Positions 54,968-64,000 of a DNA stretch of 64,000 bases are shown piece by piece (position 1 is the stretch's first letter; every line of letters begins with the position of its first letter). The notes under the pieces were generated by a model, which did no database searches, had not been told where the DNA came from, and saw nothing but the letters and a program-made list of their open reading frames with translations. Made by a program: the position numbers and the translations under genes. Source of the stretch: Campylobacterales bacterium (GTDB lineage Bacteria > Campylobacterota > Campylobacteria > Campylobacterales > Sulfurimonadaceae); contig JAPLGP010000033.1 of assembly GCA_026390075.1 (NCBI GenBank), positions 47,619-111,618 on the forward strand, given 5' to 3'.

Positions 54968-56893
54968 CTATAATAATTCAACCATTTCTGTAGCACGACC
55001 TTGAATAACATGAATATCTTTTTGGACAAGTTTACCAAGTGTCTCCATGTCCATAACACCCGTAGCTATGAGTGAAATACCAACGGTATCTGTAATAAGT
55101 CTAAGAGCAGAAAGTGCTTGATCGCTTTGGCTTAAAAAGTAACTTGTTTCACCTTTGATATAAGCAGGTCTCATATCTTGCAGATATTGATAATCTGTAC
55201 TTTCACCGATAAATTCATAAATTCCCATTTCTATATTATATTTTTCAAAGAGAATTTTATACTGTTTAATTTGGTCAGAATTTTTACGAACCAATCTATC
55301 TGGAATTTCCATAATAAGTTTAAATGGAAGATATTTTGCATACTCTTTAAAAAGTAAGCTTAAATCATTGTAAGTTTCTGGCATGTTTAAATACTCAAAA
55401 GACAATCGAAGTGAACATGTTGCATCTTTGAGATTTATATCAGGTGTTTTAAACATCATGTTGATAACATTTTTATAGATTTGTGAACTAAGACCTGCTT
55501 GATTTGCTGGTGCCATAAACTGACCGTAATAATATATTTTGCCATCTTTGTCTTTGAGGTTGAGGCTTAGTGCATTGTGTGCTATTTTTTTAGCTTTTGC
55601 ATCTACTGCTGTCCATGAAACAAAACTAAAACTATTTGTACTTAATGCTTCGTTTATGATGCCTCTCCAAGCTTCTTTCCCCATAACTTCGATGGCACCT
55701 TCCGCTTTTTCAAGGTGAATATTTGTAGCACTAAACTTGGCATGTGCAAGTGCGTTATCTGAGAGTGAAAGAAGTTGCCCGATGTTTTGTCTGTAGTTGT
55801 ATTCATAAAGTCCAAGCGATATAAATGTAGTTTTTATATCAAGTCCACATGCCGAGATAGTTTCTGTCGCTTGAGAATATATAAGCTGTGCAAGTTTTAA
55901 ACCATCTTCATCTGAACAATCTGGAAGCAAAATCGAGAACTCCGTACCATTCATTCTCGATACTATAGAGTGTTCATATCTATCAGTATGATTTTTAAAT
56001 ATATCGCCAAGGGAAATAAAGAGTTTATCAACATCACGATGCCCGATTTTTTCATTTGCTTCTATGACTCCACTCAGTGCTATCATCATGTTGATACCAC
56101 CTTTTGAAGAGGCATCTATTTTAAGGTATTCTGGAAGTTTGTCTATAAGATATTTACGATTTCTTAGTTTTGTTGTAGGGTCGATGTACTCTAACTCTTT
56201 TTGACGCTTGAGTTCTTCATTTCCTTTGTCAAACATTGCTTTTACTTTTGAAACCATGTTATTCATACCAAGAACAACATCTTTAAACTCTTTTGTATTT
56301 GGAATAGTTCCTTGCATAATGAACTCATTGCGTCCAACTGCTTCTGCTTGTCTTTGAACCTCTTTTAAAGGCTGAAGAATTGCAGCAAGAATAAGATTCA
56401 GTATGACAAGTGCTATAAATGCTATGATGCTAAAAGAGATGAGAAGACCTGTTAATATCGCATAGAGTTGTTTATAGGCATAAGTTACATCGCTTTGAAC
56501 ATTGAGAATTCCTACCTGACTCCATCCAGCCGAAACATTTGCAGATGCTACGGGTGCGTGAATGCTAACTGCATTTAAGAACCATCTTGGAACATCGATT
56601 TGTTGGCTTTCTGCTTTTCGCTCATACAAAACCACATTTTCAACATCTACAAGTGAAATATAGAGGTAATTTCCACTATCAAAGTTTGCATTTATCATCG
56701 TTGACATAATGCTTTCATCCCCACCAGCAGTTCCAAGCGAAAGGCTAAGAGAAGTTGCAGTATTTTTTGCATCCTCGTAAAGTCTATCTTGAACAGAAGC
56801 GTTTGCACTTTGAAAATTAAGCGTCAAAACAGTTGTTAAGATGATGAGTAAAAAGAGAGAGAGCATTAAGGCTATCTGCTTGAAGAGGGTCAT
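54968..56893 (-). CDS. lapD: LapD-like c-di-GMP receptor (inactive GGDEF-EAL)
   Basis: The 641-residue protein has a membrane helix, a periplasmic LapD/MoxY N-type domain, a second helix (LYAILTGLLISFSIIAFIALVILNLILAA), HAMP, a GGDEF fold with loop MNGTEF instead of GGDEF, and an EAL fold without the EAL motif. Both enzymes therefore look inactive, as in LapD, which binds c-di-GMP and then sequesters the protease LapG. It overlaps the lapG stop by 4 bases, which is strong context. Confidence 0.88.
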   Translation of the reverse strand: MTLFKQIALMLSLFLLIILTTVLTLNFQSANASVQDRLYEDAKNTATSLSLSLGTAGGDESIMSTMINANFDSGNYLYISLVDVENVVLYERKAESQQIDVPRWFLNAVSIHAPVASANVSAGWSQVGILNVQSDVTYAYKQLYAILTGLLISFSIIAFIALVILNLILAAILQPLKEVQRQAEAVGRNEFIMQGTIPNTKEFKDVVLGMNNMVSKVKAMFDKGNEELKRQKELEYIDPTTKLRNRKYLIDKLPEYLKIDASSKGGINMMIALSGVIEANEKIGHRDVDKLFISLGDIFKNHTDRYEHSIVSRMNGTEFSILLPDCSDEDGLKLAQLIYSQATETISACGLDIKTTFISLGLYEYNYRQNIGQLLSLSDNALAHAKFSATNIHLEKAEGAIEVMGKEAWRGIINEALSTNSFSFVSWTAVDAKAKKIAHNALSLNLKDKDGKIYYYGQFMAPANQAGLSSQIYKNVINMMFKTPDINLKDATCSLRLSFEYLNMPETYNDLSLLFKEYAKYLPFKLIMEIPDRLVRKNSDQIKQYKILFEKYNIEMGIYEFIGESTDYQYLQDMRPAYIKGETSYFLSQSDQALSALRLITDTVGISLIATGVMDMETLGKLVQKDIHVIQGRATEMVELL

Positions 56894-57531
56894 ATTTTTT
56901 TCCTTTGTATGTTGAGGTTGAGTTCATCCCAATTTTTGTGGACTTTTTCATTTTCTACTTTTGCACCTGCTCCATCACCTGAAGCTTTGTAAAGAGAAGT
57001 TCCACTAAAGTTATAAATAGGCGTAAGGTCTGTTCTTTTTGAAGCGGGAAGAACCCTGTGATTGTTGTTATCCATAATAAGCGGTTCAGCTCTTGCAGTA
57101 GCAAAGTAGGTCAAAACCATGTGTGCTTCTTTAAACTGCGTCGAGCGAACATAAGTAAAGAAGAGTTTTTTAGAATCCACTCCAAGATAAATAAGTGCAA
57201 AATACTTAGCGATAACATAATCTTCACAATCGCCCATATCTTTAGCCAAAAATTCCCATGGAGTCGCCCAATAATCGCTCACTCCATACACTTTCATATC
57301 GGGCGCATATTTTACTTCATTGTAAAAAGTATTTACCTCTTCCATTTTTTCCAAATCACTTTTACCAGCAACAGCATCTAAGGTTTGTTGTTGATAAAAA
57401 AATCTTTTTTTAGCAAACTCATTATACTTTTGTCCTATTTGTGCAATCAGAGCAGCATCAGCATAGGGCTGTCCAGCATGAATTACAGTCGTAAAAAATA
57501 AAAAAAGTAGCACTGCTTTAAAAAAGTTCAT
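56890..57531 (-). CDS. lapG: LapG-like periplasmic cysteine protease
   Basis: The 213-residue transglutaminase-like cysteine protease has a signal peptide (MNFFKAVLLFLFFTTVIHA). The catalytic Cys is in DMGDCEDYVIAKYF, His in FKEAHMVLTYF and Asp in EPLIMDNNNH. LapG cuts a large surface adhesin when released by LapD. No large adhesin gene is in the window. Residues 78-162 are identical to the neighbouring chimeric copy, which arose by tandem duplication. Confidence 0.88.
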   Translation of the reverse strand: MNFFKAVLLFLFFTTVIHAGQPYADAALIAQIGQKYNEFAKKRFFYQQQTLDAVAGKSDLEKMEEVNTFYNEVKYAPDMKVYGVSDYWATPWEFLAKDMGDCEDYVIAKYFALIYLGVDSKKLFFTYVRSTQFKEAHMVLTYFATARAEPLIMDNNNHRVLPASKRTDLTPIYNFSGTSLYKASGDGAGAKVENEKVHKNWDELNLNIQRKKI

Positions 57532-58413
57532 AGTTAATTATACATTAATTAAATTTGTCTTTTGTTAAAACCTGCTGTTCCCTCTTTGGCATGTGGAATA
57601 AAGTCCTTAGCATATCCTTTCAAGTAGAGCGGAATAGCTCTTCCTTTTAATCTCATCATAGCTTCAAGCATCTCTTTTGGAACCATTTTGGGAGAAAGAT
57701 TTTTCAATTGTGTGAGGTCTAATCTTTTTGAAGCGGGAAGAACTCTGCGATTGTTGTTATCCATAATAAGCGGTTCAGCTCTTGCAGTAGCAAAGTAGGT
57801 CAAAACCATGTGTGCTTCTTTGAACTGCGTCGAGCGAACATAAGTAAAGAAGAGTTTTTTAGAATCTACTCCAAGATAAATAAGTGCAAAATACTTAGCG
57901 ATAACATAATCTTCACAATCGCCCATATCTTTAGCCAAAAATTCCCATGGAGTCGCCCAATAATCACTTACGCCATATACTTTCATATCAGATGTATACT
58001 TTACTTCATTGTAAAAAGTATTTACCTTTTCCATTTTTTCTAGGTCGCTTTTGCCAACAACGGAATCTAAAATTTGTTGTTGATAAAAAAATCTTTTTTT
58101 AGCAAACTCATCATACTTTTGTCCAACCTGCGCAATCAAAGCTACATCAGCATAAGGCTGCCTTGCCTGAGTTACAGTAGTGAAAAATAAAAAAATAAGC
58201 ACAACTTTAAAAAAGTTCATAGTTAATTATACATTAATTAAATTTGTCTTTTGTTAAAACCTGCTGTTCCCTCTTTGGCATGTGGAATAAAGTTCTTAGC
58301 AAATGGTTTTAAATAGAGCGGGATTGCTCTTCCTCTGAGTTTCATCATATCTTCAAGCATTGCATTTGCAACGATTTGAGGAGAAAGATTTTTAAATTCT
58401 GTGAGATATATAA
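57036..58413 (-). repeat. 689-bp imperfect tandem duplication
   Basis: Two adjacent units, about 57036-57724 and 57725-58413, align at a constant offset of 689 bases (for example AGTTAATTATACATTAATTA at 57530 and 58219, GAGAAAGATT at 57692 and 58381). Each unit holds most of a lapG gene plus the 3' end of the radical SAM gene. The 9-mer copies at 57588 and 58277 are part of the duplication. Confidence 0.88.
57549..58220 (-). CDS. Chimeric gene: LapG protease fused to the C-terminus of a radical SAM protein
   Basis: Residues 1 to about 168 copy LapG, including signal peptide and catalytic Cys, His and Asp. From about residue 170 the sequence (LKNLSPKMVPKEMLEAMMRLKGRAIPLYLK..FIPHAKEGTAGFNKRQI) is instead the C-terminal tail of the radical SAM protein encoded next door. 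The frame is intact for 223 residues, so it is not an obvious pseudogene. It replaces the normal LapG tail after VLPASKR. Whether it is active or controlled by LapD is unknown. Confidence 0.85.
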   Translation of the reverse strand: MNFFKVVLIFLFFTTVTQARQPYADVALIAQVGQKYDEFAKKRFFYQQQILDSVVGKSDLEKMEKVNTFYNEVKYTSDMKVYGVSDYWATPWEFLAKDMGDCEDYVIAKYFALIYLGVDSKKLFFTYVRSTQFKEAHMVLTYFATARAEPLIMDNNNRRVLPASKRLDLTQLKNLSPKMVPKEMLEAMMRLKGRAIPLYLKGYAKDFIPHAKEGTAGFNKRQI

Positions 58414-59740
58414 ACAACAATTCTCCAAGCCTTTGAAGTGATATTTGCCATGTGGAATCGGTTTGTTCATATATCCACATGCCAAACTTATAAAAATTTT
58501 CATATACACTTTCATCTTGCCAAATAAGTGTAACACTTTGTTTAAAATTTCCACTATTGTAAGTCAAATCCCAAAATCGTGCAAATCTTTTCATAATCTG
58601 TATATCGTTAAAACTAAGCTGATTATTTTGCAAAATATCATAAGGAGGTATATCGCTATAAATCATTCCATGCGTAATGTCATGCTGATTTATAAAAGTA
58701 CCAGAGAGTTTTTTAAGGATGCCTATTTGAATTTCACAACTGCTAAGTTTTACTAATTCATCAAGATTTTTGCCAAAACTCTCTAAAGATTCCCCAGGAA
58801 GTCCGACTATCAAATCAAGATGGATGTGCGCTTCTGTTTCATGCTCTAAAAAGCTAATATTTTCTTTGATTTTTTTTAGGTTGAGTTGTCGTGATATAGT
58901 GTTTGCAACTTCAAGATTTAAAGTTTGTATGCCGATTTCTAGCTGGAGTGCGGCATGTGGAAACTTTGCGATTTTTTCTTTTATGGAAGAGGGGAAATGG
59001 TCGGGGATAACTTCAAAGTGAGCAAAATAGGGAGGCTCTTTTGCTAGAAAAAAGTCCAGTATTTTATTAGCTGTTTTCATGTTGATGTTAAAAGTTCTAT
59101 CAACAAACTTGAAATTTCTTGCACCTCTGCTCCATAAAAGTTCAAACTCTGCTAAAACAGCATTCAAATCAAATGCTCGAACTCTCTCGTCCATAGAAGA
59201 GAGACAAAATTGACATTCAAACGGGCAACCTCTTGAAATTTCAACATAAATATAGCGGTTTTTTATATCGTCATCAGAATAGTATTTGTAGGGAAGTTCT
59301 AGCTCTTTGAGTTTGGGTGTGCTTGTTTTTATGATTTTGGATTGAGGAGGATTTTTGTCTATAATATTTCTGCAAAGTTCATAAAAAGCGACATCGCCTT
59401 CGCCCTGTATAATAAAATCAGCCACATCGAAATTGACACGAAATGGCTCATGGCTTACTTCAGGACCACCTAAAATGATGATAATTTTTGGTGCAATTTT
59501 TTTGAGAATGTGAATAAGTTCGTGAACTTCTGTGGCATTCCAAATATAAACACCTATTCCTATAAAGTCTGGCATGTGGATTAAAAGTTTTTCCGCAATA
59601 GTTTGAAGTGCATCATTGATGCTAAATTCTAAGATTTCTGCATGCTCTTGCAACTCTCTTAAATTTGCATACAAATATCTAAGACCAATTGAACTGTGTG
59701 TATATCTTGAATTTAAAGTAGTGAGAATAATTTTTTTCAT
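58238..59740 (-). CDS. B12-binding-domain radical SAM protein (DUF4080 type)
   Basis: The 500-residue protein has a cobalamin-binding-like N-terminal domain (ITTLNSRYTHSSIGLRYLYANL, IIIILGGPEVSHEPF), then a radical SAM core with the cluster motif CPFECQFCLSSMDERV and IGIQTLNLEVANTISR. The C-terminal 150 residues fit DUF4080. The substrate is unknown. Its last 50 codons are repeated in the chimeric LapG gene downstream. Four 9-mer copies lie in it (IHMPD, FPHAA, FGMWI, IPHAK). Confidence 0.88.
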   Translation of the reverse strand: MKKIILTTLNSRYTHSSIGLRYLYANLRELQEHAEILEFSINDALQTIAEKLLIHMPDFIGIGVYIWNATEVHELIHILKKIAPKIIIILGGPEVSHEPFRVNFDVADFIIQGEGDVAFYELCRNIIDKNPPQSKIIKTSTPKLKELELPYKYYSDDDIKNRYIYVEISRGCPFECQFCLSSMDERVRAFDLNAVLAEFELLWSRGARNFKFVDRTFNINMKTANKILDFFLAKEPPYFAHFEVIPDHFPSSIKEKIAKFPHAALQLEIGIQTLNLEVANTISRQLNLKKIKENISFLEHETEAHIHLDLIVGLPGESLESFGKNLDELVKLSSCEIQIGILKKLSGTFINQHDITHGMIYSDIPPYDILQNNQLSFNDIQIMKRFARFWDLTYNSGNFKQSVTLIWQDESVYENFYKFGMWIYEQTDSTWQISLQRLGELLFIYLTEFKNLSPQIVANAMLEDMMKLRGRAIPLYLKPFAKNFIPHAKEGTAGFNKRQI

Positions 59741-62486: not shown

Positions 62487-63620
62487 ATGCGCAGTAGGGA
62501 ACGAGGAAGTGCCCTTGGGGTACCGACACTTTTAGGAACTTTTTACTTTTTTTACTTTTCTATCGTTGGTGTTTACATCATTTTTATGCCAAAAGTATTG
62601 GCTATGTCTGGGTATAGTGCCAGTGAAATAGGCATTATTTTCGCAGTTGCTCCACTCGTTCGCTTTTTACTCCCCTTTGCTTTTACTAGAGGCTTAAAAC
62701 TGAATGTAAAAAGTTTTAATGCCGCACTTCTTATTATGATACTGAGTTCCATCGCATTTTATTTTTCACTCGACTCTTTTTATAAACTTTTAGCTTCAAA
62801 TATAGCCCTTGGAATAGGACTTAGTCTCACTCTTCCCTACATCGAACTCATAGCACTGCATACAATTGGTAAAGAGAGATATGGAAAGATTCGACTTTTT
62901 GGCTCTGTTGGTTTTGTTCTAGTTGCACTTGTATTGGTAAAATTTTTAAATGAGCCTATTGTTGCATTCGAATTTTTAGTTGTTCTCACTTTTTTAACTG
63001 CACTTATTGCTTTTGTGATTGCAAGAAAAACAAATAAAACAGAGCAAATAACAGAACATGTGCAAAATGATATAAACATTTTAGGAGATTGGAAACTTTG
63101 GTTGGGTCTCACTCTTATGCAGGTAAGTTTTGGTGCGTACTATAACTTTTTTACTATCTACGAAACCGACCATAGTGTGAGTTTAGATATGACCATCTAT
63201 CTCTGGAGTTTTGGGGTTTTAGCTGAGATAGTTATGCTCTATTTTCAAGGAAAACTGCTTCGAGGAAATCTTCTTTTCATTTTGCAAATCACAACTTTTA
63301 TAACCGCCTTTCGATGGCTTTTACTCTTTTTATTTGCCCAAAATTTACCGATACTTTTTTTCTCGCAAATGCTTCATGCGCTTAGTTTTGCACTTTTTCA
63401 CACCGCTGCCATTAGCTATTTGTTTCATCTTTATAAGCATAAATCTTTAGCACAACAGTTTTTCTCAGGAATAACCTATGGTTTAGGAGGATTTAGTGGA
63501 GCACTGCTCGCTGGATATATTTATGAGTTTTACCCAAAATATCTCTTTTTAAGCTCAGCAATTCTCGCACTCTTGGCATGTGGATTTTTGTATTTGTGGA
63601 GTAAAAAGATTACTTTTTGA
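62487..63620 (+). CDS. MFS transporter (MFS_1-like, LacY/HcaT type)
   Basis: The protein has about 378 residues and some 12 membrane helices, with the GRIRLFGSVGF-like loop (KERYGKIRLFGSVGFVLVALVLV) of the MFS_1-like group and a conserved C-terminal half (HALSFALFHTAAISYLFHLY, FFSGITYGLGGFSGALLAGYIYE). The track start at 62424 lies inside the RDD gene. The ATG at 62487, embedded in a near copy of the 9-mer (CCACATGCG), is a better start but lacks a clear ribosome site. The substrate is unknown. Confidence 0.8.
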   Translation: MRSRERGSALGVPTLLGTFYFFYFSIVGVYIIFMPKVLAMSGYSASEIGIIFAVAPLVRFLLPFAFTRGLKLNVKSFNAALLIMILSSIAFYFSLDSFYKLLASNIALGIGLSLTLPYIELIALHTIGKERYGKIRLFGSVGFVLVALVLVKFLNEPIVAFEFLVVLTFLTALIAFVIARKTNKTEQITEHVQNDINILGDWKLWLGLTLMQVSFGAYYNFFTIYETDHSVSLDMTIYLWSFGVLAEIVMLYFQGKLLRGNLLFILQITTFITAFRWLLLFLFAQNLPILFFSQMLHALSFALFHTAAISYLFHLYKHKSLAQQFFSGITYGLGGFSGALLAGYIYEFYPKYLFLSSAILALLACGFLYLWSKKITF

Positions 63621-63645
63621 CTTTTTTCTTTAGTTGATGTATAAT
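63617..63645 (+). promoter_or_regulatory. Near-consensus sigma-70 promoter of the small RNA
   Basis: TTGACT (63617-63622) and TATAAT (63640-63645) are separated by 17 bases. A -35 this good is rare in this AT-rich genome and suggests a strong, constitutive RNA gene. The -35 overlaps the MFS stop codon. The expected start of transcription is about 63651-63653. Confidence 0.8.
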
Positions 63646-63650
63646 TTTTC

Positions 63651-63734
63651 GTCACAAACAACTTATGTGTTTTATGGAGCGGTAAAAAGCTTTTAAAGGT
63701 TAGGGGAAGTCATGAGCCTCTAACCTTTTTTTTT
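63651..63734 (+). ncRNA. Small RNA of about 84 nt with intrinsic terminator
   Basis: From the predicted start the sequence runs to a 12-pair stem (AAAGGTTAGGGG / CCTCTAACCTTT, one G-U pair) followed by nine T. It holds no useful ORF. Its first bases, TCACAAACAACTTA (63652-63665), are complementary at 13 of 14 positions to TAAGCTGTTTGTGA (63769-63782) in the small peptide gene downstream. It could be an antisense regulator of that peptide or the attenuated leader of the same transcript. It is no RNA family I know. Confidence 0.65.
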
Positions 63735-63763
63735 GCCCTCCTAAAACATATAAGGGAGATTTT

Positions 63764-63823
63764 ATGAGTAAGCTGTTTGTGATAATTCTGCTTATGTGCA
63801 TTTTTGCACCTATGTTACATTAA
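63764..63823 (+). CDS. 19-residue hydrophobic peptide (toxin-like)
   Basis: The ORF is too short for the track: MSKLFVIILLMCIFAPMLH. AAGGGAG lies 5 bases before the ATG, a strong ribosome site. CTCC just upstream (63738-63741) could pair with it, and TCTCCCT at 63850-63856 is complementary to AGGGAGA. Two hairpins (GTGCA/TGCAC at 63796-63809, CTATGTTA/TAACATAG at 63810-63828) cover the end of the ORF. Length and composition recall membrane-acting type I toxins such as Ibs. There is no homology proof. Confidence 0.5.
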   Translation: MSKLFVIILLMCIFAPMLH

Positions 63824-63829
63824 CATAGT

Positions 63830-63849
63830 CAAGGGATTTATTTCCCTTG
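63830..63849 (+). terminator. Stem-loop after the small peptide gene
   Basis: CAAGGGA / TCCCTTG with a 6-base loop follows the peptide stop by 6 bases. No T run follows, so it may be a stabilising 3' hairpin rather than an intrinsic terminator. From here to the tRNA (63850-63972) I see nothing further except AT-rich DNA. Confidence 0.45.
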
Positions 63850-63972
63850 TCTCCCTAATAATCCTTAAAAAAACATCAACAGCTTCTTGAGCTATAAATT
63901 CTTATTAATTTAGATATCTTTGTGTGTGGTTCTTTAAATGATTTTGAAGTTAATGGATGATATATGAATGGG

Positions 63973-64000
63973 TGGTGGCTAATCTCGGAATCGAACCAAG
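63973..64000 (-). tRNA. 3' end of a tRNA gene (cut by the window edge)
   Basis: On the minus strand the sequence reads CTTGG-TTCGATT-CCGAG (T stem and loop), then ATTAGCC, A73 and an encoded CCA. The anticodon lies beyond the window, so the amino acid cannot be told. The 5' acceptor strand should read GGCTAAT. Confidence 0.88.

Follow-up and report, generated by a model that had tools for sequence, protein, structure and literature searches.

A conserved, RNA-regulated hydrophobic-peptide module in Campylobacterota, probably resembling type I toxin-antitoxin systems

The 64,000-nucleotide stretch of Campylobacterales DNA analysed here (hereafter the window) carries close to its end what is almost certainly a real and conserved module, in which a hydrophobic 19-residue peptide is regulated by RNA. 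It is probable that this module acts as a type I-like toxin-antitoxin system with a terminated leader as its antitoxin, a reading in which we infer the short RNA, its action in trans and the toxicity of the peptide. Whether it goes further, and represents a new class of toxin module spread over several Campylobacterota families, is a question that we regard as evenly balanced; in such a class, one promoter would yield both the antitoxin (a terminated antisense leader) and the toxin mRNA, termination would set their ratio, and the 5' end would silence the toxin in cis and in trans.

Anatomy of the window copy and its distribution

Every feature that a first-pass annotation had claimed for 63617-63856 is present at correct coordinates, and all of those described here lie on the forward strand. 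The promoter (63617-63645) is near-consensus as proposed, with TTGACT at 63617-63622, a 17-nt spacer and TATAAT at 63640-63645 (11 of 12 consensus positions), and its -35 box overlaps the stop codon of an upstream transporter-like ORF. The predicted short RNA and proposed antitoxin (63652-63736, about 80 nt) is placed so that pairing starts at the predicted +1, and lies, as originally annotated, upstream of the ORF on the same strand. Its extreme 5' end (63652-63665, TCACAAACAACTTA) is complementary at 13 of 14 positions to 63769-63782, i.e., late codon 2 to early codon 7 of the ORF, a match reached by none of 5000 shuffles of this 5' end. The intrinsic terminator (63698-63734) was likewise found, as a stem (63698-63706/63717-63725) followed by nine T (63726-63734); its 10-nt loop exceeds the 8-nt loop limit of our first terminator scan, and the stem was recovered by folding. 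The Shine-Dalgarno (SD) sequence AAGGGAGA (63752-63759) precedes the 19-aa ORF (63764-63823), which encodes MSKLFVIILLMCIFAPMLH, the proposed membrane-active toxin.

These elements are embedded in further predicted structure. Helix P1 joins 63664-63674 to 63742-63752, and inside it a near-invariant GGAG-Y-GGYAA/TTGYCCTCC helix (63676-63741) surrounds the terminator hairpin. The ORF contains a GTGCA/TGCAC hairpin (63796-63809), a second hairpin covers the stop codon (63810-63828), and a 3' hairpin (CAAGGGA/TCCCTTG, 63830-63849), with no T-tract after it, leads to a 3'-terminal anti-SD element (TCTCCCT, 63850-63856), at which similarity between copies stops. No intrinsic terminator marks the 3' end of the mRNA. 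The predicted fold of the whole RNA (63652-63860) has an energy of -79.7 kcal/mol (z = -8.5; none of 200 shuffles is as stable) and comprises a long hairpin (63664-63752) enclosing the terminator and a second domain pairing the SD with the 3'-terminal TCTCCCT.

Two other regions of the window deserve mention for their own sake. On the reverse strand, 56890-58220 and 58238-59740 hold adjacent small cysteine-protease-like paralogues of 213 and 223 aa, with nearly identical N-terminal parts and different C-termini. In the second copy, the final ~40 residues (...PHAKEGTAGFNKRQI) are matched by the C-terminus of a 500-aa, radical-SAM-like neighbour, as would result from a duplication that became fused onto its 3' end. 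The contig ends inside an apparent tRNA gene (63965-64000, reverse strand; reverse complement CTTGGTTCGATTCCGAGATTAGCCACCA), for which ARAGORN reported no tRNA, presumably because it is cut by the contig end.

The source genome holds exactly four copies of the module, including that of the window. A search of named genomes for the pattern ATGGAG...nine T...CTCC retrieved 60 stretches, all from Campylobacterota and mostly from Sulfurimonas and Sulfuricurvum, and among 228 genomes of the family the module is present in 54, often in several copies. We parsed 66 distinct copies from Sulfurimonas, Sulfuricurvum and relatives, sulfur oxidisers related to Helicobacter and Campylobacter, 63 of them with an intact ORF start, and these form the basis of the comparisons below. 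Plasmid, phage and viral collections gave no match to the module, and no mobile vehicle was found in them. In Rfam, the window has no match at the gathering threshold, and a permissive threshold returned only sub-threshold miRNA noise. No earlier description of the module emerged from our searches of open-licence papers on type I systems of Sulfurimonas or Campylobacterota and on type I pairs that share a promoter or work by attenuation.

A covariance model built from the parsed copies reaches other families, where the nucleotide sequence is almost unrelated and the order of the parts is the same. Divergent members encode peptides such as MWRLLLIILLLCLLTKKLY, MRWVFLVIFLLCLLTVRAY, MGNLIVIIVLLMLIITKLY and MAKILLIMLLLAIIITRLH, each accompanied by its own matching 5' end and SD lock; in one further divergent member (L123) the 5'-end match is only 5 bp and no pairing is clear. 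Some hits of the model fall on the wrong strand (L121, L125, L126, L128, L133) because the module is partly palindromic, and weak hits that look coding or unrelated and lack the module anatomy were discarded (family f11; L129-L132, L135-L137, L139). At two loci (L142, L067), tandem copies are separated by a few hundred bases and differ in their antisense and ORF sequences, which suggests that the module was duplicated locally and that its pairing segment then diverged.

One promoter, a terminator and covarying helices

Across copies, the -10 box keeps at least five of six consensus positions in 63/63 cases. In the same 63 copies, neither the opposite strand nor the interval from terminator to ORF has a conserved promoter; opposite-strand -10-like sites occur in 25 of them, at scattered positions. 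The terminator stem covaries, and its T-tract is exactly nine long in 62 of 63 copies. This length is held also in copies with few A on the opposite strand, and the tract is thus kept for termination rather than pairing. By this comparison, and as far as sequence can tell, a single promoter and a terminator are established parts of the module, and the nine-T terminator predicts a separate short RNA, which would measure 71-91 nt across copies. No repeats are visible within this RNA.

The pairing noticed in the window is general. Each of the 63 copies whose ORF start is intact shows it: the initial ~17 nt of the transcript form a duplex (helix H1) with codons ~2-8 of the same-strand ORF, and in 45 copies the paired segment opens 6-7 nt downstream of the -10, at the predicted +1. 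The mean duplex energy is -18.1 kcal/mol for cognate vs. -8.7 kcal/mol for non-cognate combinations (63 copies), the own ORF being the best partner for 48 of the 63 5' ends and among the top three for every one. Each of the nine H1 pairs scored in an alignment of 59 sequences covaries, with two-sided changes in up to 38 sequences at a single pair, and eight of the nine are essentially never broken. Conservation in relatives, one of the three points by which the initial proposal was to be judged, thus speaks in its favour and lends it partial support: the peptide is kept, and the complementary segment is kept by compensatory change in every copy.

The remaining helices behave similarly. All seven scored pairs of P1 covary; the helix around the terminator is paired in 100% of cells, with seven of nine pairs invariant and two compensated; the hairpin within the ORF appears as a compensated GUGUA/UACAC in some copies; and the hairpin over the stop codon, at which many changes are two-sided, belongs to the RNAalifold consensus. 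Taken together, the named helices score 0.381 for covariation vs. 0.170 when shuffled (0/500). If the partners are slid, this score is at most 0.151, and the paired fraction, 91% in register, does not exceed 53%. RNAalifold, unprompted, predicts the same helices. The comparison establishes these predicted helices and their copy-specific pairing.

The SD had been proposed to be masked by two CU-rich elements, and one of these holds up. The downstream TCTCCCT locks the SD by pairing of 63850-63856 with 63753-63759, and the SD and the extreme 3' end change together between copies (AAGGGAGCC/GGCTCCCTT, AAGGGGATC/GATCCCC). The upstream CTCC (63738-63741) mainly pairs elsewhere: its partner in 59/59 aligned copies is the GGAG of the 5' arm (63676-63679), with which it encloses the terminator.

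Folding of nascent transcripts, up to the stop codon, produced H1 in 59-60 of 61 cases, and in full-length RNAs about half of the copies switch from H1 to the 3' SD lock; the nested folding used here makes the two mutually exclusive, and in reality they may coexist as a pseudoknot. These models suggest that both of the routes first envisaged, action in trans and action within one read-through transcript, may operate. There is also a rather unlikely alternative, in which regulation would occur in cis only, the 5' and 3' ends being two locks of one small-membrane-peptide mRNA, the terminator doing no more than lowering its dose and the short RNA being a by-product. Such a riboregulator would be consistent with the presence of H1 in nearly all nascent folds and its competition with the 3' lock, with H1 being an intramolecular pair in every copy, and with the lack of detectable within-genome selection for orthogonality: the degree of orthogonality between paralogues of one genome does not exceed that between copies of different genomes (p = 0.24). 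Against it, a terminator of exactly nine T in 62/63 copies implies that a short RNA with an unpaired 17-nt antisense end should dominate, and RNA halves outlast the loss of the ORF at several loci, as described below. We retain the type I-like reading, with the short RNA as antitoxin, as the more probable one.

The peptide and the fate of its gene

Among copies with an intact start, 61 of 63 encode exactly 19 aa, with TAA, TAG and TGA all used as codon 20. The pN/pS ratio of the whole ORF is 0.46, falling to 0.29 over codons 9-18, and throughout the hydrophobic core T is nearly invariant at second codon positions, although third positions vary. Purifying selection, three different stop codons at the same position and conserved hydrophobicity show, at the level of sequence comparison, that the ORF is translated.

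This selection also bears on the suggestion that the module is a functionless dispersed palindromic repeat (MITE- or REP-like). Although the copies are multiple, partly palindromic and intergenic, such an element would account neither for codon-level purifying selection and the three stop codons, nor for copy-specific covariation in several separate long-range and local helices, nor for retention of the promoter. We consider its probability close to negligible, and as the sole explanation it is refuted by the codon-level selection together with the covariation.

The first-pass annotation had also offered an attenuator, that is, a leader peptide controlling a downstream gene. The module does have the short ORF, terminator and alternative hairpins of such a device, but the terminator lies before the ORF, similarity between copies stops at the 3' anti-SD, and the copies examined stand alone, with downstream genes that differ from locus to locus and are often on the opposite strand. 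This alternative is not supported, and we regard it as very improbable.

Loss of the two halves is asymmetric. All 92 intact ORFs in the 228 family genomes, matched by coordinates, lie within full-length modules, and at about ten loci the half with promoter and terminator persists where the ORF has been lost to deletion, interruption or frameshift (L042, L060, L067, L098, L200, L201, L203, L208, L209, L211, L215). At L209 (1-501), the ORF has been cleanly removed, so that the 3' hairpin follows immediately on the Shine-Dalgarno, and the promoter-side RNA and terminator are kept. At L042 (1-700), the promoter and terminator half is likewise kept and the ORF deleted, in a genome that also has an intact copy with an unrelated 5' end. 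This pattern fits a toxin, but is only suggestive, because an orphan ORF would also fall silent by losing its promoter half.

A regulated small membrane protein or signal that uses the same RNA circuit without being toxic would be compatible with copies that are chromosomal, numerous and conserved, and that occur in none of the plasmid, phage or viral collections. We nonetheless judge this rather improbable, since a toxin better fits the very tight, multi-layered silencing, the dispersed and multicopy distribution with absence from most family genomes (present in 54/228) and the frequent loss of the ORF only, and since a grand average of hydropathy (GRAVY) of 2.05 for MSKLFVIILLMCIFAPMLH, at 19 aa, is in line with type I toxins.

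Proposed mechanism and comparison with known systems

We propose the following sequence of events for a toxin-antitoxin module, in which termination efficiency, processing, trans action and toxicity are presumed. From one promoter on one strand, RNA polymerase would start just upstream of the antisense segment, and most transcription would stop at the built-in terminator to give a ~80-nt RNA whose unpaired 5' end is antisense to the beginning of the toxin ORF; this RNA is the expected main product because a strong terminator separates promoter and ORF in every copy. Occasional read-through would produce the toxin mRNA, which could silence itself since both RNAs carry the same 5' end: during transcription this end would capture the ORF start in cis. 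In the finished mRNA, the 3'-terminal anti-SD would pair with the SD and render it inert, as in aapA and hok mRNAs. Processing of the long hairpin or of the 3' end might then yield a translatable mRNA, which the abundant short RNA would have to silence in trans, and the 19-aa membrane peptide would be made once the short RNA is exhausted.

Among known systems, Ibs/Sib, TisB/IstR-1 and other enterobacterial type I pairs resemble the module in combining a small hydrophobic peptide with an RNA antitoxin. Their peptides are about 19-29 aa long (~19 aa for Ibs); Sib is an antisense RNA, and IstR-1 is divergent with its own promoter. More generally, type I systems are recognized by an RNA complementary to the toxin mRNA and by a small, hydrophobic, translated protein; the module displays the former as covarying pairing in 63/63 copies and, judging from codon-level comparison, the latter.

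AapA/IsoA of Helicobacter pylori (eLife 2019, PMC6733600) shares with the module its phylum, a small hydrophobic peptide, a highly folded mRNA and several copies per genome. The aapA mRNAs form transient hairpins during transcription and are then held by a 3' anti-SD until 3' trimming (PMC6733600), a succession of co-transcriptional silencing and 5'-3' long-distance lock on the SD that is mirrored here by covarying pairs of SD and 3' end. The systems differ in that IsoA is a separate, opposite-strand antisense RNA, whereas the complementary RNA of the module is the same-strand leader of the mRNA. We also take the AapA peptide to differ in sequence from that of the module. Sok, too, is transcribed from the opposite strand, and Hok is larger than the module peptide. 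The likeness to hok/Sok lies in the hok mRNA, which is inert by folding, its 3' part sequestering the translation start (PMC6733600).

Type I antitoxin genes may be divergent, convergent or parallel and adjacent (reviewed in PMC8167048), and our searches of the open-licence literature turned up no antitoxin formed by the terminated 5' leader of the same transcript that encodes the toxin. This layout is instead that of type III systems, where the antitoxin RNA lies upstream under a shared promoter and an intrinsic terminator between the genes sets the RNA:mRNA ratio by read-through (PMC8167048). As in ToxIN and AbiQ/AntiQ, the RNA of the module is upstream of the ORF, on the same strand and promoter, with a terminator between them; in type III, however, an endoribonuclease is bound by an antitoxin RNA made of repeats, whereas the module has neither repeats nor a nuclease, but a 19-aa ORF and an antisense RNA.

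The module would thus join a type III layout (one promoter, RNA first, dose control by a terminator) to a type I antisense mechanism. Since 19-codon genes are too short for usual annotation and match no Rfam family here, such modules probably go unnoticed in sulfur-oxidising bacteria of environmental importance, and perhaps beyond them. The dozens of natural variants offer a test set for co-transcriptional silencing of a toxic mRNA and, as copies pair best with their own or closely matching ORFs, a possible source of orthogonal RNA switches.
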